From an uncultured Campylobacteraceae bacterium (GTDB taxonomy: Bacteria; Campylobacterota; Campylobacteria; Campylobacterales; Arcobacteraceae), in NCBI GenBank assembly GCA_913057765.1, contig CAJXPH010000002.1, positions 1 to 43,249 on the forward strand: a stretch of DNA of 43,249 nt, in the 5' to 3' direction. A program made the translations under genes and the position numbers. How positions within the stretch are numbered: position 1 is the stretch's first letter; each line of letters opens with the position of its first letter. A model generated the notes under the pieces. The model made no database searches, was not told the DNA's origin, and saw only the letters and a program-made list of their open reading frames with translations. Positions 1,521 to 12,753 of this stretch are shown one piece after another.

Positions 1521-1862
<342 letters not shown>

Positions 1863-1924
1863 TCATCCTTTTTTTAAGTATTTTATTCTATCTAATTTTT
1901 TTTATTATTTAGGTTATATTTATT

Positions 1925-3112
1925 TTAGAAAGCTCGTTTAAACTCTGGGTATGCTTCTAAACCACACTCTTCTACATCTAAACCTTGCATTTCTTCATCT
2001 CTATCTGCTCTTAATGGTGATACTTTATTAATTAAGAACAAAACAACATATGAAGCAACAAAGGCAAATATAGCAACAACTACAACACCTTTTAATTGTC
2101 CCATAAAAGTAATATCTTCACCATTTGCAGCAAATATACCAACAGCTAATGTCCCCCAGATACCATTTAATAAATGAACAGAAAGTGCCCCAACAGGATC
2201 ATCAAGTTTTAATTTATCAAAGAAAGATACTCCAAATACTACAATTACACCACCAATTGCACCAATTAAAATAGGTGTATATATATCATATAAATCTGGA
2301 CCTGCTGTTATTGCAACTAATCCACCTAATGCACCATTTAGTACCATCGTGATATCCAGTTTTTTATATCTAAAGTACATGAATGCACCTACCATGATTG
2401 CACCTGCAAGTCCTGCCGTATTTGTATTCATTATAGTTAAAGCAACAGCATCAGCAGATTCTTTAGAAGCTATTGAACCAACAGAACCACCATTAAATCC
2501 AAACCACCCAATCCATAATAAAAATGCTCCAAGTGTAACTAAGGGAATATTTGATGCAGGTATAACTCTAACTCCACCATCTTTTGTATATCTTCCTTTT
2601 CTGGCACCTATTATTAAAATTGCGGCTAATAAAGCCCATCCACCAGTTGAATGAATTACTGTTGATCCAGCTAAGTCATACATTGTAAGATCTAAGAATG
2701 TTCCCTCTAACATATCTGCACCCCATGACCAGTTAACAATTGTAGGATAAAGAATACCACCCATAATTACAGTGAATAGTGCTAAAGGTAATACTTTTGC
2801 TCTTTCAGATACACCACCAGACATAATATTGATTACTTTACCAACAAATGCCATTTGAAATAAAAATGCTGCATATTTAGACATTGTATCACTTCCAAAG
2901 TCGCCAAATGCAATTGAATAACCTATAAGTAAAAATGAAATTGATGCTACTGCATAAATCATTGTATTTATCATTAATACTGCTGAAACATTTTTTGTTC
3001 TAACAAGTCCTGCTTCAAGCATAGCAAAACCTGGTACCATAAAGATAATTAACGTCATTGCAAATATTGCAAAAAACGTATCAAGCACATAACTTACTGA
3101 TTCTAAATCCAT
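1925..3112 (-). CDS. amtB: Ammonium transporter (AmtB paralog 1)
   Basis: This 395-residue Amt/Rh-family channel conducts ammonia derived from periplasmic ammonium across the inner membrane. There are eleven hydrophobic segments. The signature region DLAGSTVIHSTGGWALL carries the first pore histidine and LSVHLLNGIWGTLAVG the second. GFAMLEAGLVRTKN near the N-terminus is the typical first-helix motif. The C-terminal tail (GLDVEECGLEAYPEF) is the conserved PII-interacting end. The ATG at 3112 has AAGGG about eight bases upstream. It is followed by glnK1 and preceded by glnK2. A 17-bp dyad (3182-3198) upstream suggests its own regulated promoter in addition to read-through. Confidence 0.95.
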   Translation of the reverse strand: MDLESVSYVLDTFFAIFAMTLIIFMVPGFAMLEAGLVRTKNVSAVLMINTMIYAVASISFLLIGYSIAFGDFGSDTMSKYAAFLFQMAFVGKVINIMSGGVSERAKVLPLALFTVIMGGILYPTIVNWSWGADMLEGTFLDLTMYDLAGSTVIHSTGGWALLAAILIIGARKGRYTKDGGVRVIPASNIPLVTLGAFLLWIGWFGFNGGSVGSIASKESADAVALTIMNTNTAGLAGAIMVGAFMYFRYKKLDITMVLNGALGGLVAITAGPDLYDIYTPILIGAIGGVIVVFGVSFFDKLKLDDPVGALSVHLLNGIWGTLAVGIFAANGEDITFMGQLKGVVVVAIFAFVASYVVLFLINKVSPLRADRDEEMQGLDVEECGLEAYPEFKRAF

Positions 3113-3143
3113 AATATAACCCTTGTCTTTTTAATCTAGAAGA

Positions 3144-3149
3144 ATTATA
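3144..3149 (-). promoter_or_regulatory. Candidate -10 box for amtB1
   Basis: A perfect TATAAT on the minus strand lies 33 bases downstream of the dyad at 3182-3198 and 32 bases before the amtB1 ATG. No clear -35 is seen, which is common in Campylobacterota promoters. This is an inference from sequence only. Confidence 0.4.
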
Positions 3150-3181
3150 TATTGTTTTAAGAGTTTAAGATAGTAGTTCTC

Positions 3182-3198
3182 TGTATATATTTTATACA
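3182..3198. promoter_or_regulatory. Shared nitrogen-cluster dyad, copy 1 (upstream of amtB1)
   Basis: TGTATA-tattt-TATACA is a perfect 6+5+6 inverted repeat, with C/G flanks extending it to seven base pairs. Its near edge is 70 bases from the amtB1 start. The same motif recurs at 4895-4911 and 5043-5059 in front of the other two nitrogen transcription units, which argues for an operator rather than chance. Confidence 0.6.
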
Positions 3199-3219
3199 GA
3201 TTGATAGATTTTATATTGA

Positions 3220-3236
3220 AGGAGAAAAAATCTCCT
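3220..3236 (-). terminator. Weak hairpin after glnK2
   Basis: A six-base-pair stem (AGGAGA / TCTCCT) with a five-base loop lies just downstream of the glnK2 stop. There is no strong T-run, so it may attenuate rather than end transcription. Confidence 0.3.
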
Positions 3237-3260
3237 CCAAAGAAAGTAAAGAAAGTACGA

Positions 3261-3608
<348 letters not shown>

Positions 3609-3611
3609 CTA

Positions 3612-4826
3612 TTATGCTTTTTTGAATTCTGGGTAACATTCAAGACCAGTTTCATGAATATCAAGACCAGTAATTTCTGTCTCTTCGTCTACTCTTAATC
3701 CAATAATTAAATCAAGTACTTTCCAAATAATAAATGAAGTGATAAATACAAATGCTCCAATTACAACAATACCTTTAAGTTGAGCCATAATAGTTACTTC
3801 TGGATTGAATATACCTACTGCTAAAGTTCCCCAGATACCGGCAACTAAGTGAACAGATAAAGCTCCAACAGGGTCATCAATTCTTAACTTATCCCATAAA
3901 GGAACAGCAAATACAACTAATGCACCACCAACAATACCTTCAATAAATGAAATCATCATTCCTAAATCAGGACCAGCAGTTACAGATACAAGACCTGCTA
4001 AAGCACCATTTAAAACCATTGTTAAATCCACTTTTTTGTATAAAAGTTGAGTTAAAAGTGCAGCTGCAATTGCACCAGCACAAGCTGCCATATTTGTATC
4101 AGCTACAACTAAAGCAATTCCATTAATATCAGCTTTTGAACCTAGAGCTAATTGAGAACCCCCATTAAATCCAAACCAACCCATCCATAAAATGAATGTA
4201 CCAAGTGTTGCAAGTGTTAAGTTAGAACCTGGAATTGGTCTAACTCTACCGTCTTTACCATATTTACCTCGTCTAGCTCCAAGTATTAATACACCTGCTA
4301 ATGCAGCCCATCCACCTACTGAGTGAACAATTGTAGAACCAGCAAAGTCAGAGAAACCTGCAATTAAACCACCAAGTTCAGTTCCACCCCATGTCCAATG
4401 ACCTTGAATTGGATAAATTAAACCAGATAAAAATACAACAAAGATTAAGAATGGCCATAATTTGATTCTTTCAGCTACCGTACCAGAAATAACTGATGCT
4501 GCAGTTGCTACGAACATAACTTGAAAGAAGAAGTCAGCTGCTGCTGGATAAGCTGCATCTGGCGCATTTTCCATACTAATTGTTGAAAAGGCACCCATAA
4601 AAGACGAACCATCACCATACATTAAGTTATAACCTACAAAATAATACATAATACAAGAGATTGCAAATAGTGCCATATTTTTTGTTAATACAGTTGCATT
4701 ATTTTTTGATCTTGTAAGACCTGCTTCTAACATGGCAAACCCTGCTGCCATCCACATTACTAATACACCAGAAAATACAAATAAGAACCCGTCTAATATA
4801 TATTTTAAGTCGTTAAAATTTTCCAT
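3612..4826 (-). CDS. amtB: Ammonium transporter (AmtB paralog 2)
   Basis: This is a 404-residue Amt-family transporter. Conserved elements are GFAMLEAGLTRSKN, DFAGSTIVHSVGGWAAL with the first pore histidine, FNGGS, LSVHLVAGIWGTLAVG with the second pore histidine, and a C-terminal GLDIHETGLECYPEF tail that normally touches GlnK. It differs from paralog 1 in the second periplasmic loop, which is longer (DGSSFMGAFSTISMENAPDA), so kinetics or affinity may differ. It is the first gene of the minus-strand nitrogen operon. Upstream is the 280-base divergent regulatory region shared with the PDC-regulator-glnD unit, including a TGTATA-N5-TATACA dyad 69 bases from its start. Confidence 0.95.
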   Translation of the reverse strand: MENFNDLKYILDGFLFVFSGVLVMWMAAGFAMLEAGLTRSKNNATVLTKNMALFAISCIMYYFVGYNLMYGDGSSFMGAFSTISMENAPDAAYPAAADFFFQVMFVATAASVISGTVAERIKLWPFLIFVVFLSGLIYPIQGHWTWGGTELGGLIAGFSDFAGSTIVHSVGGWAALAGVLILGARRGKYGKDGRVRPIPGSNLTLATLGTFILWMGWFGFNGGSQLALGSKADINGIALVVADTNMAACAGAIAAALLTQLLYKKVDLTMVLNGALAGLVSVTAGPDLGMMISFIEGIVGGALVVFAVPLWDKLRIDDPVGALSVHLVAGIWGTLAVGIFNPEVTIMAQLKGIVVIGAFVFITSFIIWKVLDLIIGLRVDEETEITGLDIHETGLECYPEFKKA

Positions 4827-4894
4827 TTTTTTCCTTTTGAAAATAATTATGTCGAAATTTTATCAGAATAAAGAAACTGTATGTCCTATATAAT

Positions 4895-4911
4895 TGTATA
4901 ATTTATATACA
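4895..4911. promoter_or_regulatory. Shared nitrogen-cluster dyad, copy 2 (upstream of amtB2)
   Basis: TGTATA-attta-TATACA is a perfect 17-bp dyad extended by one further T/A pair. Its near edge is 69 bases from the amtB2 ATG, almost the same spacing as copy 1 upstream of amtB1 (70 bases). A conserved position relative to two paralogous genes supports a functional operator. Confidence 0.62.
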
Positions 4912-5042: not shown

Positions 5043-5059
5043 TGTATATTTTTTATACA
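5043..5059. promoter_or_regulatory. Shared nitrogen-cluster dyad, copy 3 (upstream of the PDC-regulator-glnD unit)
   Basis: TGTATA-ttttt-TATACA lies 21 bases before the TATAAT at 5081-5086, so it overlaps the expected -35 position. That placement would suit a class II activator or a repressor acting on the unit that encodes the Fis-type regulator and glnD. Confidence 0.6.
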
Positions 5060-5080: not shown

Positions 5081-5086
5081 TATAAT
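5081..5086 (+). promoter_or_regulatory. -10 box of the PDC-regulator-glnD operon
   Basis: A perfect TATAAT lies 20 bases before the start codon at 5107, preceded by tgtgt and AT-rich sequence. A good ribosome site (aggagag, 5097-5103) follows. Confidence 0.6.
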
Positions 5087-5106: not shown

Positions 5107-5967
5107 ATGAAAGAGTTTTTAGAAATATATGATCAAAACCGCGATAAAATTGAATTTTTCCTACAAGAAAGTTTAAAAAATATTGGAAACCTAGGTACTT
5201 ATAAGAAAAATAAATTTGCAGAAGTATTTGATATCTTCCCTTCTCTTGAACTTATATATCTAGTAAATAAAACTTCAAAAAATCAAATATCAGCAAATAT
5301 TTATAAAAATAAAATTGATGAAAAAGCAAAAGATAAAGATAGAAGTCATCTAATTTCGAAATTGGAATTTAAAGACAATAATATGGCTTTCTCAACTCCT
5401 TATATTAGTAGTGCAACTAGAAGCAATTGTATTACTGTGACAATTAAAGAAAACGATACAATCATATTTCTAGATTTTAGAATTGATGTTCTATTAGAGA
5501 GATTAAATCTTATTGAACTACATAAACCTTTTCATAGTGCAACAAAACTTTTTTATATGTTAGCTGGATTCTCAATGATTGCACTATCTGTTTTCATTAT
5601 TCTTTATTCCTTATATGATTTTATAATATTTGTATTATTTAAAGAAGGTATCGAATTAGAAGTAATATTCAAACCAATTATTGCTTTAACCTTAGGTATT
5701 GCAATATTTGACTTGGCAAAAACTATTTTAGAACAAGAAGTATTTTTTAAATCTTATTCTAAAAATTCTAGAGTTGAAACAAAAATGATTACAAAATTTC
5801 TAATTACAATTATAATTGCATTATCTATTGAAGCACTTATTGTCGTATTTAAGATTGCTATAAATGATTATGACAAAATGGTAAATGCTCTGTATTTAAT
5901 TACAGGTATTTCATTAATACTTATTGCACTTGCAGTATTTATCAAATTAACTAAAAATAAGGTATAA
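5107..5967 (+). CDS. Membrane protein with PDC/Cache-like N-terminal domain
   Basis: The function is not known. Residues 1-140 resemble a PDC/Cache sensor domain: FPSLELIYLVNK, then a DRS motif near 78-80, then STPYISSATRSNCITVTI and a closing strand FLDFRI. Residues about 148-178, 188-204, 229-251 and 260-280 are four hydrophobic segments. The order is odd. Cache domains are usually extracytoplasmic and preceded by a membrane helix, but here no helix or signal peptide comes first, so the domain may be cytoplasmic. It is the first gene of a unit with a Fis-type regulator (one base between stop and start) and glnD. A role in sensing or tethering for nitrogen control is inferred from this context only. 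The start has a clear AGGAGAG ribosome site. Confidence 0.75.
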   Translation: MKEFLEIYDQNRDKIEFFLQESLKNIGNLGTYKKNKFAEVFDIFPSLELIYLVNKTSKNQISANIYKNKIDEKAKDKDRSHLISKLEFKDNNMAFSTPYISSATRSNCITVTIKENDTIIFLDFRIDVLLERLNLIELHKPFHSATKLFYMLAGFSMIALSVFIILYSLYDFIIFVLFKEGIELEVIFKPIIALTLGIAIFDLAKTILEQEVFFKSYSKNSRVETKMITKFLITIIIALSIEALIVVFKIAINDYDKMVNALYLITGISLILIALAVFIKLTKNKV

Positions 5968-5968
5968 A

Positions 5969-6727
5969 ATGAAAGATTACATAGCTATTTCAAAAAATTC
6001 TAAAGAAATTTTAAACTCTGCGCATCTTTTACAAAGTGTTGAAGTAAATGCATTAATATCTGGAGAAGCAGGAGCTGGTAAAAAATCACTATCTCAATAT
6101 ATTGTTCCAGATGCTCCTATTTTCAAAGCAAAAAATTTACAACAAGATATTATAGACAATGTAATAAATTTAAAAAACTGTTCAATTATTATAGATAAAA
6201 TAGAAAATATTACAAATATTGATTTACTTATAAATTGGATAGATGAAAACTCTATTAGAGTGATTGCTACAACATTAAAAGAGGAATTAAATAGTAAAAT
6301 AGCTGAACAGTTCTCAATTACAATGGAACTTCCTCCATTAAAAGATAGAGAAGAAGACGTAAAAGCATTAACTACTAAGTTCTCAAAAGAAGCTAGTACA
6401 ACTTTAGATTTAGAACAAATCATTCCTTCAAAACTTATGGTTAATATATCTAATAATGCGCATAGTTTAAGAAAATCAATATACTTTTCTTATCTATTTG
6501 AAACTATTGGGGAAGATGAGATACTAATGTTTATGGAAAACTACATGTACTCAAATATGCATGGAGAAGATTCATATAAAGATTTTTTATATCTTCTTGA
6601 AGTGCCGATTTTAAAAGCGGCATCAAAAAAATATAAGTCACAAGTTCAAATGGCTAAACATTTAGGACTAAATAGAATTACATTAAGAAAAAAACTTGAT
6701 ATACATAAGGATTTTTTAAATGACTGA
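5969..6727 (+). CDS. Shortened NtrC-like regulator with Fis-type HTH
   Basis: This 252-residue protein derives from sigma-54 activators. It keeps a Walker A (GEAGAGKKS, residues 32-40), a Walker-B-like strand IIIDKIENI (73-81) with lysine in place of the usual glutamate, and the family phrase LPPLKDREEDV (121-131). A well-preserved Fis-type helix-turn-helix (SQVQMAKHLGLNRITLRKKL) lies near residues 224-243. It has no receiver domain. Only about 35 residues separate Walker A from Walker B, so the GAFTGA loop that contacts sigma-54 has no room and is not seen. It probably acts as a DNA-binding regulator without sigma-54 activation. It starts one base after the membrane protein and overlaps glnD by eight bases. 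It is the obvious candidate to bind the TGTATA-N5-TATACA dyads, though this is inferred. Confidence 0.8.
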   Translation: MKDYIAISKNSKEILNSAHLLQSVEVNALISGEAGAGKKSLSQYIVPDAPIFKAKNLQQDIIDNVINLKNCSIIIDKIENITNIDLLINWIDENSIRVIATTLKEELNSKIAEQFSITMELPPLKDREEDVKALTTKFSKEASTTLDLEQIIPSKLMVNISNNAHSLRKSIYFSYLFETIGEDEILMFMENYMYSNMHGEDSYKDFLYLLEVPILKAASKKYKSQVQMAKHLGLNRITLRKKLDIHKDFLND

Positions 6728-9260
6728 GCTTAATATAAAAGTCGAAGAATTAATTTCAAATAATGCAGAAGATTTTGAAATATCAAAAGTATTTAGGAAC
6801 TCTTTTAAAAATTATGTGAAATCAATTGATGAAACACTTAATACTACTATTGGAAAAGATTTTTTTGTAAAACATACAAAATATACAGACAAGTTCTTAA
6901 TATCTTTATATAAATATATCTTACGAAAACATTTTGGTGATTATCAACCAATGAGTACTTCAATTCCTATTACATTGATTGCTTTAGGATCTTACGGAAG
7001 AGAGCAACTATGTATCTATTCTGATGTTGATTTAATGATTCTATATGAAGATATTAAAGGTTACAACCTAAAAGAGATTATGGAAGAATTCATAACCCTT
7101 GCATGGGATTGTGGACTAAAACTTGGCTCAAGAGTACATGAACTGAAAGAAATTGAAGAAGAAGTAAAAGAAGATATTACAATTAAATCATCAATTTTAG
7201 AATCAAGGATGATTTATGGTTCAAAGCATTTATGGTTCGGATATCAAAATGTTTTACATAAAATTAGAAAAACAAACCAAAAAGAGTTTATAAATGATAA
7301 ATTAGAAGAACATAAACAAAGACTTTTAAAGAACCCACTTAAAATGGAACCAAATATAAAAGATGGTTATGGTGGAATGAGAGAATCAAATATGATCTTC
7401 TGGATGGCAACAGTTATTTTTGGAGTTTCTGATATTAAACAACTTATGGGAAAAGAATTTACAGAAGAACAATATAAAAAATATAGAGGTTCTTTAGAAT
7501 ATATTTTTCAAGTAAGGAATGCTTTACATAATACTGCAAAGAAAAAACTTGATGTACTTAATTTTGATACACTTCCTGACGTTAGCTCAAAACTAGGATT
7601 TAAACATAAACCTAGACATACAAAAGAGAGACAATGTATGGCTAAATTATTAGAATCATTACATAACGTACATTTCTTTTCTACTGTCATGGTTAAGAAA
7701 TTTACAAGACCAATTGTTTTTGACAAAAAGAATATTAAACTATTAAGACAGAGTAAATACAAAAAGAATCTATATATCTGTGACAACACACTATATACCT
7801 CTTTTCATAGAAAGCCATTAAGCCTAAATGCTTTATTAAAAGAACTTAATGAACTTCCAAAAGAAGTAGAACATTTTGATAGGTCTTATATATATTTTGC
7901 AAATAGATCTAAGCTTCCTAATAGCCAATCTAAAGAGCTAAAAAAATCTATTAAAACTCTTTTATACAAAAAAAGTTTATATCCTGTTATAAAACTATTA
8001 TATAATTCAGGCTTATTTCAAGCAGTACTTCCTATTACTAAAAAAATTATAAATCAACCACAATTTGATGGTTATCATCAACATCCAGTTGATCTTCATT
8101 CTATTAAAACACTAAAAAGAATTGAAGATATTAAAGATACAAATGTAAAAGCTGTTTATGACAACCTAGAAGAAAAAGATAAAGCACTAGTAAGACTTGT
8201 TGCCCTTTTTCATGATGTAGGAAAAGGAAGAACTGTAGATCATCATATTGTAGGAGAAAAACTATTTAAAAATATGACTTCTTCATTTGGTTTTGATGAA
8301 ACACATATTAAAAAAGGTGCTCTTCTTGTAAGATATCATAATATGATGAGTACAGTTGCCAATAATGAAGATATCTATTCAGAGAAAGTAATTCTAAAAT
8401 TCACTGCATTAGTTCAAAATGAACTAAATCTGAAAATGCTTTATGTAGTAACTTATGCAGATATTTCTGCAGTAGGTAAAACAGTTTATAAAAGTTCTAC
8501 GGCACAGTTATTAAAAACACTATACACTCAATGTCTTCCTGCATTTGAAAATAAAGGACTATTAAATGAAAATTCAAGAAGAATAGCAAAACAAGAAGCA
8601 ATTAAAAAACTTAAAAGATATAAAGAGCTACCTAACTTATTAAAGAAAAAAGTAATGTATATTTCTTCAAATCAAATATTTTTACAATTAAAAGCTGAAG
8701 ATATTTTAGATATAGCAATTCATGCAAAAAATGTAAATGATTATATTTATAAGCTTGTAAATGAAACCCATTTAACAATTAGAATCATTAGAAAAGCACC
8801 TTTAAACTTAGGTTTTTTACTTGGTAAACTTGAATTTTTAAATATAGCATCTATGCATATTTTTAAATTATATGATGATAAAAAAGCATTTTATATCTCT
8901 TTCTCTGAAAAAGTAGATAAAGAAGATATCCCTTATGTTGAGGAAGTAATAAAAAGTTCTTTTGATATGACAAGAAAAGTAAAATCTATTACTCCAAAAA
9001 TAGAAAAAAAGAATATTGAAATAGATTGTAACCATACAACATATTTAGCTTCTATGCAAGTTGTTGCACCTGACCAAAAAGGTCTTCTTGCACATATTGC
9101 AAAGGTTTTTGATGATTTTGATATTGAAGTAGAAAGTGCAAAACTTACTGCAAGAAAAGGTATTGCAAAAAACTTAATTTTAATAGAAAAAAATGGAAAC
9201 TTCTGTATCAATCAAGATGAAATAACAGAAGCTTTATGTATTGAAGGAAAAGCAGAGTAA
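6720..9260 (+). CDS. glnD: Bifunctional PII uridylyltransferase / uridylyl-removing enzyme GlnD
   Basis: GlnD transfers UMP to Tyr51 of PII proteins under nitrogen limitation and removes it when glutamine is high. The 846-residue length is close to the usual 850-890. Domains in order are a nucleotidyltransferase (GSYGREQLCIYSDVDLMIL, residues about 91-109, with the SDVD metal aspartates), the GlnD-type helical linker, and an HD hydrolase domain (from YHQHPVDLHS near 450 to LFHDVGKG near 497). Two C-terminal ACT domains follow, the last containing VVAPDQKGLLAHIAKVFDDF. The start overlaps the preceding regulator by eight bases, so translation is coupled. The two glnK products on the opposite strand are its likely substrates. 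It ends in a hairpin shared with the converging aas gene. Confidence 0.96.
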   Translation: MTELNIKVEELISNNAEDFEISKVFRNSFKNYVKSIDETLNTTIGKDFFVKHTKYTDKFLISLYKYILRKHFGDYQPMSTSIPITLIALGSYGREQLCIYSDVDLMILYEDIKGYNLKEIMEEFITLAWDCGLKLGSRVHELKEIEEEVKEDITIKSSILESRMIYGSKHLWFGYQNVLHKIRKTNQKEFINDKLEEHKQRLLKNPLKMEPNIKDGYGGMRESNMIFWMATVIFGVSDIKQLMGKEFTEEQYKKYRGSLEYIFQVRNALHNTAKKKLDVLNFDTLPDVSSKLGFKHKPRHTKERQCMAKLLESLHNVHFFSTVMVKKFTRPIVFDKKNIKLLRQSKYKKNLYICDNTLYTSFHRKPLSLNALLKELNELPKEVEHFDRSYIYFANRSKLPNSQSKELKKSIKTLLYKKSLYPVIKLLYNSGLFQAVLPITKKIINQPQFDGYHQHPVDLHSIKTLKRIEDIKDTNVKAVYDNLEEKDKALVRLVALFHDVGKGRTVDHHIVGEKLFKNMTSSFGFDETHIKKGALLVRYHNMMSTVANNEDIYSEKVILKFTALVQNELNLKMLYVVTYADISAVGKTVYKSSTAQLLKTLYTQCLPAFENKGLLNENSRRIAKQEAIKKLKRYKELPNLLKKKVMYISSNQIFLQLKAEDILDIAIHAKNVNDYIYKLVNETHLTIRIIRKAPLNLGFLLGKLEFLNIASMHIFKLYDDKKAFYISFSEKVDKEDIPYVEEVIKSSFDMTRKVKSITPKIEKKNIEIDCNHTTYLASMQVVAPDQKGLLAHIAKVFDDFDIEVESAKLTARKGIAKNLILIEKNGNFCINQDEITEALCIEGKAE

Positions 9261-9271
9261 TCTCTGCTTTT
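9248..9271. terminator. Bidirectional terminator between glnD and aas
   Basis: The 10-bp stem aaaagcagag / ctctgctttt has a taat loop. The glnD stop codon is in the loop and the aas stop codon lies at the outer edge. T-rich tails exist on both sides, so one hairpin can end both converging units. Confidence 0.75.
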
Positions 9272-12200
9272 TATAAACTTTGAGCTAAAATTTTAGCTGT
9301 TTTAAAATCCTTCTTCCCTGTTCCTAATTTTGGAACATCATCAACGATTTTAATTAAACTTGGAATCATCAACTTATTATCAAATGTTTTTACCATCTCA
9401 TTTTTTAGATTTTCAATAAACTCATTATTTACTCCAGATATGAGTAAAATCACTTTTTCACCTTTTTTTTCATCAGCCAATGAAGTTGCTACAAAATCTA
9501 TTTCATTCTCTTCTTCACTTAAAATTAGTTTTGTAACCTTCTCTTCAATAGCTCCAAGACTTACCATTTCTCCTCCTAGTTTTGCAAACCTAGAATATCT
9601 ATCAACTATCGTTAAAAATCCATCAGAATCTATCTTTCCTTTATCTCCTGTTATATAAAAAATATGACCATCAATTTCTTTTAAAACTGAAGCAGTTTTT
9701 TCTTCATCTTTTAAATACCCTTTCATAACCTGAATACCAGAAATAACTATCATTCCTTCTTGTCCTGATTCTAGTTCCTCAAAACTTTCAGGATCAACAA
9801 TTTTTACAATAGTTCCAGGGATAGGCATGCCAACACTTCCTTGTTTAGTTCCTACTTGCACAGTGAAATCTGGAGCTAAAGTATTTGGTAAGTTACAAGC
9901 CGCCACAGGAGTTGTTTCTGTTACTCCATATCCCTCTATAATATCTTTTCCAAACTTCCTTTTAAAATCTAACCTTACATCTTCTCTTAATTTTTCAGCA
10001 CCTGCAACTGTAAGTCTAAGGCTTTCAAACATCAAAGGATGAACTTTAGAATTTTTTGTATAGAGTCTAAAGAATGTTGATGTTCCACACATGATAGTTG
10101 CTTTATATTTTGATACAAGCTTTCCTAACCCTACTCCATCAGTTGGATCAGGATGTGCAACACATTTTATTCCTTCAATTAAAGGTAAAAAAGTAGTAAC
10201 AGTTATACCAAAAGCGTGAAAAATAGGCAAAGAGGCTACTATTGTATCACTATGGCTTGCATTTATTATCCCTGCAATTTGTTGTGAATTGCCTAAAATA
10301 TTATCACTAGTAAGTTCAACCCCTTTAGGTGTCCCTTCACTTCCTGATGAGAATAAAATTACTGCAGTATCATCTTTTCTAGTTTTCTTAACATGTATTG
10401 CTTTTAATATAAAAGAAGGAAAGAACTTAACAGATAATAAAGTTAAAAGTCCTGAGCTTTTTGAAATAAGTGGTTTTAAATCTTCCACATAAATTACTTC
10501 AGTAAGCTCAAATAACTCACTTACATCTATACCTTTTCCGGCTAACTTCTCGACAAATTTTTTAGAAGCAACTATCGTTTTAATATCTGCTTTGTCAATA
10601 GCTTGTTTTAATGCCTCAATTTCGGCAGTATAATTTAGATTTACAACTGTTTTACCTAACATTATAGTGGAGTAATTTATAAAGGCTCCAGCTGACGTTG
10701 AAGGTAAAAGCAATCCAATATTTTGTCCTTTTATTCTGCTTTCTAATAAATTCTTAAATAATATTGATACTGTTAAAAATTTATGTCCAGACAACTCTAA
10801 ACCAGTTGAATCTCCAAAAATAAAATCACTTCCAACTTCTTTTAAACTATCAAAAATTGTATTACCTAAAGTATCTAAATTTTTAATATGTTCATTCCAA
10901 GATTCAGTTGAAAGTTTTATAACTTCACTTTTTACTAAAGCAATAGTTGCCTTTTCTTTTTTAATTGGTTTTGAAAAAGATACAGTAACACTATTTGTTC
11001 TATATGATTGTTTGAACTTTTTATTAGCACGACTGAACATAGATTCCCATAGTCCTCTAATATAAAAAGATACAACTTTTACATCTGTTTGAGTAAGTTC
11101 CAATATCTTTTCAAAACCTTTTTTAAACTCTCCCATATGACCATTTCTTGTAATACTCCCTTCAGGAAATAAAACAACTATATTCCCTTCATCTAATTCT
11201 TTTGCAATAGTTTGTAAAGCAGATTTACTAGAAGCATTTGAAATAGGAATTGCACCAAATAATTTTAAAACCCAAGTTAAGTACCATTTGTCATAAATTG
11301 GCTTATGCATTACAAATTTTACTTCTCTAGGACTACTCATTAGAATTACTGCCCAATCAATCCAAGATACGTGATTTCCAAGTAATAATATTCCCCCAGA
11401 TGAAGGAATATTCTTAACTCCTTGTACTTCTAAATTGTATTTCATCCCTACTACAAACTTTAAAAATAATAAAATCAAAGATTGAGGAAGTTTATAAATA
11501 GTATATAACGTCCCTCCAATAGTAATTAATAAAATTAAATAAATAGTATTTTTTGGGTCTAAATTTAGAAGTGAAACTATTGTTGTAAGCATTAACATAG
11601 CAAACATTGCTAATGAATGAAACCAATTATTCCCAGCTAGAACTGTTCCTAAAATCTTTCTTTTTGCATTAAACTGAATAAGAGAATTCAATGGTACAAC
11701 AAATAATCCACCAAAAATACCAAAAACTAAAAATGTAAGACCTAATAAAAATGTACTTTCCACTACGGTTGAAACATAAATCGTAATAGCCATACCAAGT
11801 GAAGCTAAAGGAATTGTCCCTATTTCTATATAGTGTTTTGATATTCTTGAATAAATAATCGAACCAATAGCAATACCGATACCCGATGCTGCAATTACAC
11901 CGTTAATTACAAATACATCAGTTATATTTAAATACTGTTTTGCAAAAGATGGGAAAACTGCCATAAGACCTTGAGATATTGCCCAAAAAACAGATAAACC
12001 AATTACAGATAAAAAGATAATATTATTTGAATAAATTGTTTTGATATTTTTACCTAAAAGTTTCCCTTGCATTAAAGCTTTTTTATCTAATTGAAGTTTA
12101 TCATTTGAGTTATATGAAGTTTTTAATTTCTTTAAAACAAAAAGTGAAATTAGCATTTCTAAAAATGCAACAGGAACGATATAATATGTTAAAGGTAATA

Positions 12201-12753
12201 TTGCATCAAGTAAAGCCTCTTTTGTAGTTAATACACTTAAGTTATTTGTATCAAAAAAACTTTCAAACACTAAAGAAGCACTTGCTATTGCAAATAAAAT
12301 TCCAATTATTGATACAGACTGAAGTACTGAATTTCCCTTTGCTAAATTTTTCTTCCCCCAAACATCTAATATAATTCCAAATTTTGCGGGAGAATAAATA
12401 GCACTTTGAACAGCAAGTAATACTAAGTTAAACATTGCTAAATAGAAATTTCCTGAAAGATATGAAAATATCATAAGAACAGATAAAACAAATGATGAAA
12501 CTGCACCATAAACTAAGATATCTTTCTTATTATACTTATCAGATAAGTATCCACTTAATGTAAATAATAATAAAAAAGGTATTATTATCATTGCATTAAT
12601 AATAGATATCCAAACAACTTGCTCACTTCCATCAAAAATCTTAAATGCAATATTTTGTAAAAGTATTTTATGGGATACATCTACTACTGCATTACAAAAA
12701 ACCACAAATAAAAATGCTAATTTTATAACTACTAAATTTGATAACTTTTCCAT
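9271..12753 (-). CDS. aas: LplT-PlsC-acyl-ACP synthetase fusion (Aas-like)
   Basis: This is a 1160-residue fusion for lysophospholipid salvage. Residues about 1-400 are an MFS transporter like LplT, which flips lysophospholipid inward. Residues about 430-620 are a PlsC acyltransferase with NHVSWIDWA (the HX4D motif, near 459) and FPEGSITRNG (near 528). Residues about 650-1160 are an AMP-forming acyl-ACP synthetase with FSSGSEGTPKGVE, GYGVTETTP and a C-terminal ITGDKGKIDSDGF region. E. coli encodes these as two proteins, LplT and Aas; one-chain versions are known in other bacteria. The gene lies three bases after the amidohydrolase, at the end of a MerR-led operon. Reacylation of lysophosphatidylethanolamine is the family role; the exact substrate here is not visible. 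Confidence 0.93.
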   Translation of the reverse strand: MEKLSNLVVIKLAFLFVVFCNAVVDVSHKILLQNIAFKIFDGSEQVVWISIINAMIIIPFLLLFTLSGYLSDKYNKKDILVYGAVSSFVLSVLMIFSYLSGNFYLAMFNLVLLAVQSAIYSPAKFGIILDVWGKKNLAKGNSVLQSVSIIGILFAIASASLVFESFFDTNNLSVLTTKEALLDAILPLTYYIVPVAFLEMLISLFVLKKLKTSYNSNDKLQLDKKALMQGKLLGKNIKTIYSNNIIFLSVIGLSVFWAISQGLMAVFPSFAKQYLNITDVFVINGVIAASGIGIAIGSIIYSRISKHYIEIGTIPLASLGMAITIYVSTVVESTFLLGLTFLVFGIFGGLFVVPLNSLIQFNAKRKILGTVLAGNNWFHSLAMFAMLMLTTIVSLLNLDPKNTIYLILLITIGGTLYTIYKLPQSLILLFLKFVVGMKYNLEVQGVKNIPSSGGILLLGNHVSWIDWAVILMSSPREVKFVMHKPIYDKWYLTWVLKLFGAIPISNASSKSALQTIAKELDEGNIVVLFPEGSITRNGHMGEFKKGFEKILELTQTDVKVVSFYIRGLWESMFSRANKKFKQSYRTNSVTVSFSKPIKKEKATIALVKSEVIKLSTESWNEHIKNLDTLGNTIFDSLKEVGSDFIFGDSTGLELSGHKFLTVSILFKNLLESRIKGQNIGLLLPSTSAGAFINYSTIMLGKTVVNLNYTAEIEALKQAIDKADIKTIVASKKFVEKLAGKGIDVSELFELTEVIYVEDLKPLISKSSGLLTLLSVKFFPSFILKAIHVKKTRKDDTAVILFSSGSEGTPKGVELTSDNILGNSQQIAGIINASHSDTIVASLPIFHAFGITVTTFLPLIEGIKCVAHPDPTDGVGLGKLVSKYKATIMCGTSTFFRLYTKNSKVHPLMFESLRLTVAGAEKLREDVRLDFKRKFGKDIIEGYGVTETTPVAACNLPNTLAPDFTVQVGTKQGSVGMPIPGTIVKIVDPESFEELESGQEGMIVISGIQVMKGYLKDEEKTASVLKEIDGHIFYITGDKGKIDSDGFLTIVDRYSRFAKLGGEMVSLGAIEEKVTKLILSEEENEIDFVATSLADEKKGEKVILLISGVNNEFIENLKNEMVKTFDNKLMIPSLIKIVDDVPKLGTGKKDFKTAKILAQSL

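Follow-up and report, generated by a model that had tools for sequence, protein, structure and literature searches.

The 43,249-nucleotide stretch of DNA from an uncultured Campylobacteraceae bacterium analysed here (the window) encodes an apparent NtrC-type regulator next to the PII uridylyltransferase gene glnD, which raises the question of how such a protein could act if it has neither a receiver domain nor the GAFTGA loop that contacts sigma-54, and on which genes. The first-pass annotation had read the gene as an NtrC derivative turned into a sigma-54-independent regulator, a reading that our analysis supports, and named no regulated genes; these are predicted here from a shared DNA dyad.

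A receiver-less NtrC-type protein encoded next to glnD

The regulator gene (5969–6727, + strand) is an intact open reading frame of 252 codons that comprises an NtrC-type AAA+ core and a Fis-type helix-turn-helix (HTH). Its Walker A motif, GEAGAGKK (residues 32–39; 6062–6085, +), starts at residue 32 and hence leaves no space for an N-terminal receiver domain. The other signatures that had been noted were likewise located in the reading frame and agree with the family profile, namely the LPPLKDREEDV phrase typical of bacterial enhancer-binding proteins (bEBPs; residues 121–131; 6329–6361, +) and the Fis-type HTH KYKSQVQMAKHLGLNRITLRKKL (residues ~221–243; 6629–6697, +), which was placed using the homologue alignment and the family profile and is strongly conserved, being nearly invariant across homologues. 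In Pfam searches the single sequence scored 26.4 bits against Sigma54_activ_2 (cut-off 25) and fell below the cut-offs for HTH_8 and Sigma54_activat; among 21 family members, Sigma54_activat (PF00158) was matched by 18 and HTH_8 by 16 (E≤0.01). The NtrC equivalog model TIGR01818 gave a score of 35.6 against a cut-off of 558.6. When the family profile was compared with solved structures, NtrC1 was found at E=1e-10, followed by VpsR and Fis. Comparison of a predicted structure with NtrC AAA+ domains, proposed earlier as a check, returned sigma-54 activators as the best Foldseek matches, with RuvB tying by VIA-align Z. The underlying AlphaFold model was built on a shallow alignment of nine sequences and has a mean pLDDT of 65, with most of the AAA core at 73–94 and low values for the lid and HTH, so that these fold matches support the AAA+ assignment only. 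Judged from the profile comparisons, the regulator is by descent a member of the NtrC-type AAA+/Fis-HTH superfamily. Orthologues without internal stops are present in 81 of 104 Arcobacteraceae genomes, and the gene is therefore maintained rather than decaying. The culturable marine strain Malaciobacter halophilus DSM 18005 also has an orthologue (L008).

To place the missing features in context, we set 96 distinct homologues from across the Campylobacterales beside FlgR-like bEBPs from that order. None of the 96 contains a GAFTGA-like motif. The distance from the Walker A Lys to the Walker B Asp, which had been judged too short for the sigma-54 loop, is indeed 38 residues in the regulator and mostly 34–39 in the family, compared with 63–65 in the FlgR-like proteins that carry GAFTDA. 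All homologues examined, from across the order, lack the loop; the deletion is hence ancestral rather than local, which answers the question of whether orthologues share the loss. A hidden L1 loop elsewhere in the protein, or a frameshift in a gene whose orthologues retain GAFTGA, was ruled out, since neither was found among the 96 homologues. The Walker B motif IIIDKI (residues 73–78; 6185–6202, +) is degenerate, as had been noted from its DKI, but ‘weakened’ understates the change: the catalytic Glu, a Lys in the regulator, is lost family-wide and kept in only three homologues. In contrast to this loss in 93 of 96 proteins, the Walker A Lys (K38) is retained in 94, and G32 and G37 in all 96. 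This pattern suggests that the regulator may bind nucleotide without hydrolysing it.

The surrounding genes form a nitrogen-related cluster. A predicted membrane protein without a Pfam family (5107–5967, +) is the first gene of the regulator operon, and the regulator gene starts 1 nt past its stop codon, in the position originally described. The start of glnD (6720–9260, +; TIGR01693 at E=4e-107, below the equivalog cut-off of that model) overlaps the end of the regulator gene by 8 nt, an arrangement that makes translational coupling of glnD to the regulator likely. On the opposite strand lie an amtB-type ammonium transporter gene (3612–4826, −; PF00909) and a glnK-type PII gene (3261–3599, −; PF00543), whose product has the T-loop Tyr51 by inspection, followed by a second amtB (1925–3112, −; PF00909) and a second glnK (1521–1859, −; PF00543). 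The region 1521–4826 accordingly holds amtB-glnK twice in tandem; the two pairs have diverged, and an exact copy of the dyad described below accompanies each. In relatives the two AmtB copies are roughly 45–50% identical. Beyond glnD, positions 9271–12753 (−) encode a 1160-residue reading frame in which MFS transporter-like, acyltransferase-like and acyl-CoA/ACP ligase-like parts are apparently fused. Positions 1–47 of the window, like the ends of another contig (L076), translate to SSSSAASDVYKRQ or GLGDVYKRQ and resemble leftover assembly adapter.

A candidate operator and its promoter geometry

The candidate operator is a 17-base dyad, TGTATA-N5-TATACA, whose 6-5-6 layout matches that of the textbook NtrC site TGCACC-N5-GGTGCA. 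Three exact copies occur in the window (at 3182, 4895 and 5043), where 0.02 would be expected. One, TGTATATTTTTTATACA (5043–5059, +), lies 5' of the membrane protein-regulator-glnD operon, and the others precede the nearest (4895–4911, −) and the second amtB-glnK operon (3182–3198, −). The whole 2.9-Mb host genome contains six exact dyads, every one upstream of nitrogen genes: the two amtB-glnK operons, the regulator's own operon, glnA, urtA and an NrtA-like ABC transporter, whose NrtA-like protein matches NMT1_2 and not a nitrate-specific model. In four other genomes in which the dyads were read, they precede amtB paralogues, glnA, gltB, gdhA and a NarK-type transporter gene, as well as the regulator, the membrane protein, porins and two quinohemoprotein amine dehydrogenase genes. 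A minority of the dyads of relatives adjoin genes without an obvious nitrogen link, for example panB and mqnE. The two amine dehydrogenase genes (alpha subunits; L186 and L188) belong to one genome, and their dyads hint that amines are a nitrogen source under predicted control of the regulator. The outer-membrane porins (L174, L187, L191 and L182; Opr-type beside prs, and TorF-type) have a dyad with a −10 hexamer at 31–32 nt and are possibly uptake porins for nitrogen compounds. One genome (G032) has 21 exact dyads against three for the control pattern, which suggests that the regulon of its genus has grown considerably.

The position of the dyad relative to predicted promoters was nearly fixed. 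When each dyad was counted in both directions, 90 of the 231 pooled site-orientations had a −10 hexamer 30–32 nt 3' of the dyad, compared with about 3.5 per offset elsewhere. In the window, candidate −10 elements lie 32 nt past the dyad at the nearest amtB-glnK (TAAAAT, 4857–4862, −) and the second amtB-glnK (TATAAT, 3144–3149, −), and 21 nt past it at the regulator operon (TATAAT, 5081–5086, +). Among the remaining host sites the distance is 31 nt at glnA, 32 nt at the NrtA-like gene and about 51 nt at urtA. Relative to the predicted starts, the dyads would thus be centred near −52 at glnA, −53 at both amtB genes and the NrtA-like gene, −42 at the regulator operon and −72 at urtA, that is, spaced roughly by whole helical turns. 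Such predicted placement is typical of activators that touch the housekeeping polymerase, and it bears on the possibility that the dyad-bound regulator represses nitrogen genes when nitrogen is in excess. The AT-rich vegetative promoters near the dyad could fire unaided, and some NtrC relatives without GAFTGA, such as Caulobacter NtrC, also repress (PMC10274813); we nevertheless regard repression as unlikely, given that the dyad keeps a near-constant distance upstream of the −10 and covers neither the −10 nor the start.

Distribution of the regulator, its candidate operator and sigma-54

We compared Arcobacteraceae genomes with and without the regulator gene. The mean number of exact dyads was 5.2 in regulator-plus genomes (reversed-pattern control 1.1) and 0.65 in regulator-minus genomes (control 0.74); the Mann-Whitney p of 1e-11 for this difference overstates the independence of the data, as the genomes are related. 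Within a single genus, genomes with the regulator had two to nine dyads and those without had none, except for one regulator-minus genome with one. The contrast was sharpest at glnA, where all 14 regulator-plus genomes have the dyad (12 exact, two with one mismatch) and none of the 16 regulator-minus genomes with a covered glnA promoter does. The glnA gene itself was kept in all genomes examined, and the regulator-minus ones retain its −10, an outcome compatible with either an activator or a repressor. PII also persists in most regulator-minus genomes, and the spread of these genomes over several genera suggests more than one loss.

These data also bear on the reading in which an unrelated nitrogen regulator binds the dyads and the NtrC-like protein is simply co-regulated, for instance as an accessory PII partner. 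Because the regulator gene lies inside the regulon, its joint loss with the dyads could be passive. One conceivable owner of the dyads is CemR, which occurs in A. butzleri too and influences the amount of GlnA in C. jejuni (PMC11334517). On the other hand, the NtrC-like protein has a nearly invariant DNA-binding HTH, no other linked candidate was found, and genomes without it lose the glnA dyad while keeping glnA and usually PII, as expected from loss of the reader. Moreover, outside the core group exact dyads recur at nitrogen-linked promoters of the regulator gene itself, at L049 and L056 in the same family and at L238 in another. We consider a separate owner of the dyads quite improbable, and favour the regulator as their reader.

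Further afield, the exact dyad was not enriched in most other regulator-bearing families of the Campylobacterales, and order-wide use of an identical operator was therefore rejected. The lack of enrichment concerned above all a group of many other families in which the regulator gene is flanked by slyD and fabD, close to tol-pal genes (L221–L226, L231–L233, L235–L237 and L240), and in which the recognition helix reads NRNT, compared with NRIT; a nitrogen role should not be presumed for this group. In the clade of the window (one clade, support 98/100) the regulator adjoins amtB-glnK and/or glnD; as read from gene neighbourhoods, the family as a whole is linked more closely to amtB-glnK and the nitrogen regulon than to glnD. 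In other members (L040–L053, L132–L142, L201–L210, L227–L230, L234, L238 and L239) a PAS-like gene lies directly 3' of the regulator. Its product, a protein of ~230 residues without a clear family, occurs in deep Arcobacteraceae and several other families, and the regulator and PAS-like pairs often adjoin amtB-glnK; at L239, in another family, the order is glnK-amtB-membrane protein-regulator-PAS-like. This neighbour is a candidate signalling partner of the regulator. The idea that it is a decayed NtrB kinase found no support: Pfam gave a weak PAS match only and no kinase appeared among solved structures; in a weak test by hhalign against one histidine kinase, the probability was 0.8%.

With respect to sigma-54 itself, we detected neither the RpoN domains PF00309 and PF04552 nor a true enhancer-binding protein in the host genome, a draft of 2.9 Mb on 374 contigs that is 97.7% complete; its stronger PF00158 matches are generic Clp/FtsH-type AAA+ proteins, none of which has a GAFTGA-like motif. 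Arcobacter is reported to have lost RpoN and FlgRS (PMC9321776); compared with this report, rpoN is carried by a minority of the Arcobacteraceae, 33 of the 104 genomes. Within the window the −24/−12 pattern showed no excess over chance, and sigma-54 promoters were rejected there. Of the features of a functional bEBP, a GAFTGA L1 loop, a catalytic Walker B Glu and sigma-54 in the host, none was found for the regulator. It is hardly credible that the protein works as a sigma-54 activator by way of an unusual contact loop, or is short through a sequencing or frameshift artefact, because, while 32 of the 81 regulator-plus genomes do carry rpoN, the other 49, single-contig ones included, carry the regulator without it, the homologues share the loss of GAFTGA and almost all that of the Walker B Glu, and the promoters have −10 boxes. 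On the combined sequence comparisons, including the sigma-70-type −10 spacing, the predicted sigma-54 independence of the regulator is well supported.

Proposed mechanism and comparison with known systems

Collectively, these data make it rather probable that the protein is a sigma-54-free, probably non-hydrolysing, reduced NtrC that binds TGTATA-N5-TATACA and activates nitrogen genes at sigma-70-type promoters, with its signal possibly arriving via PII. In this model, an ATP-binding AAA+ core joined to a Fis-type HTH would serve as the nitrogen-assimilation regulator of the lineage, and a dimer would bind the 17-bp dyad, whose centre lies ~42, 52–53 or 72 bp before the predicted sigma-70-type starts. 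The targets would comprise the regulator operon, amtB-glnK, glnA and the urea and nitrate genes, joined in relatives by gltB, gdhA and amine genes. Under nitrogen limitation, activation would most likely proceed by direct contact with the housekeeping RNA polymerase. The nitrogen signal may be relayed by PII (GlnK), with the co-encoded GlnD as its modifying enzyme; sensing is the weakest step of the model. A broader proposition seems to us evenly balanced: that a reduced NtrC free of phosphorelay, hydrolysis and sigma-54, with its own operator, is the nitrogen master regulator of the Arcobacteraceae and some other Campylobacterales, read out directly by PII and/or nucleotide state, or by the co-encoded PAS-like partner in sister lineages, and so constitutes a distinct class of nitrogen control.

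If the preferred reading holds, it names the likely nitrogen regulator of Arcobacter-type bacteria together with an operator, a promoter geometry and a regulon that are directly testable, and it offers a natural series from a sigma-54 activator to a conventional activator once sigma-54 is lost. In a literature search that left most subscription papers uncovered, we found no description of this regulator or of Arcobacter-type nitrogen-assimilation control. A large comparative regulon study that included NtrC omitted the epsilonproteobacteria for lack of any orthologue there of the regulators it targeted (PMC5343134). The same study describes an NtrC core regulon of glnA, amtB and glnK with extensions to gltB, gdhA, urt and nrt/narK, and both core and extensions match the regulon predicted here. 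Compared with canonical NtrC, however, the regulator has no receiver, GAFTGA or sigma-54, and its candidate operator differs in sequence and lies close to the promoter. FlgR, the bEBP of the Campylobacterota, is an NtrC-family AAA+ protein of the same order, but the FlgR-like proteins found here have a receiver, GAFTDA and an intact Walker B; relative to bEBPs, the regulator family has a Walker A-B segment ~25 residues shorter and has largely lost the Walker B Glu.

The closest parallels are the NtrC proteins of Rhodobacter capsulatus and Caulobacter, which are likewise NtrC-family nitrogen regulators without the GAFTGA loop; action at sigma-70 promoters has been reported for them, and in R. 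capsulatus ATP needs to be bound but not hydrolysed (PMC10274813). The predicted dyads and −10 spacing would fit an R. capsulatus-type supply of a nitrogen regulon from sigma-70 promoters, and the kept Walker A with lost Walker B would agree with a need for bound but not hydrolysed ATP. Those proteins retain a receiver domain and the NtrB kinase, whereas the present family has no receiver. Further relatives of enhancer-binding proteins without sigma-54 contact are VpsR, TyrR, DhaR and HupR (PMC3162934), with VpsR among the best profile matches to the family in solved structures. These proteins have retained a sensory domain at the N terminus and govern other processes, while the regulator consists of core and HTH only and its predicted regulon is nitrogen assimilation. 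Since sigma-54-independent NtrC relatives are known from R. capsulatus and Caulobacter NtrC, TyrR and VpsR, the general kind is already known; what would be new, as far as sequence can tell, is a receiver-less form without the Walker B Glu, its candidate operator and promoter geometry, its predicted link to a whole nitrogen regulon and its order-wide spread.
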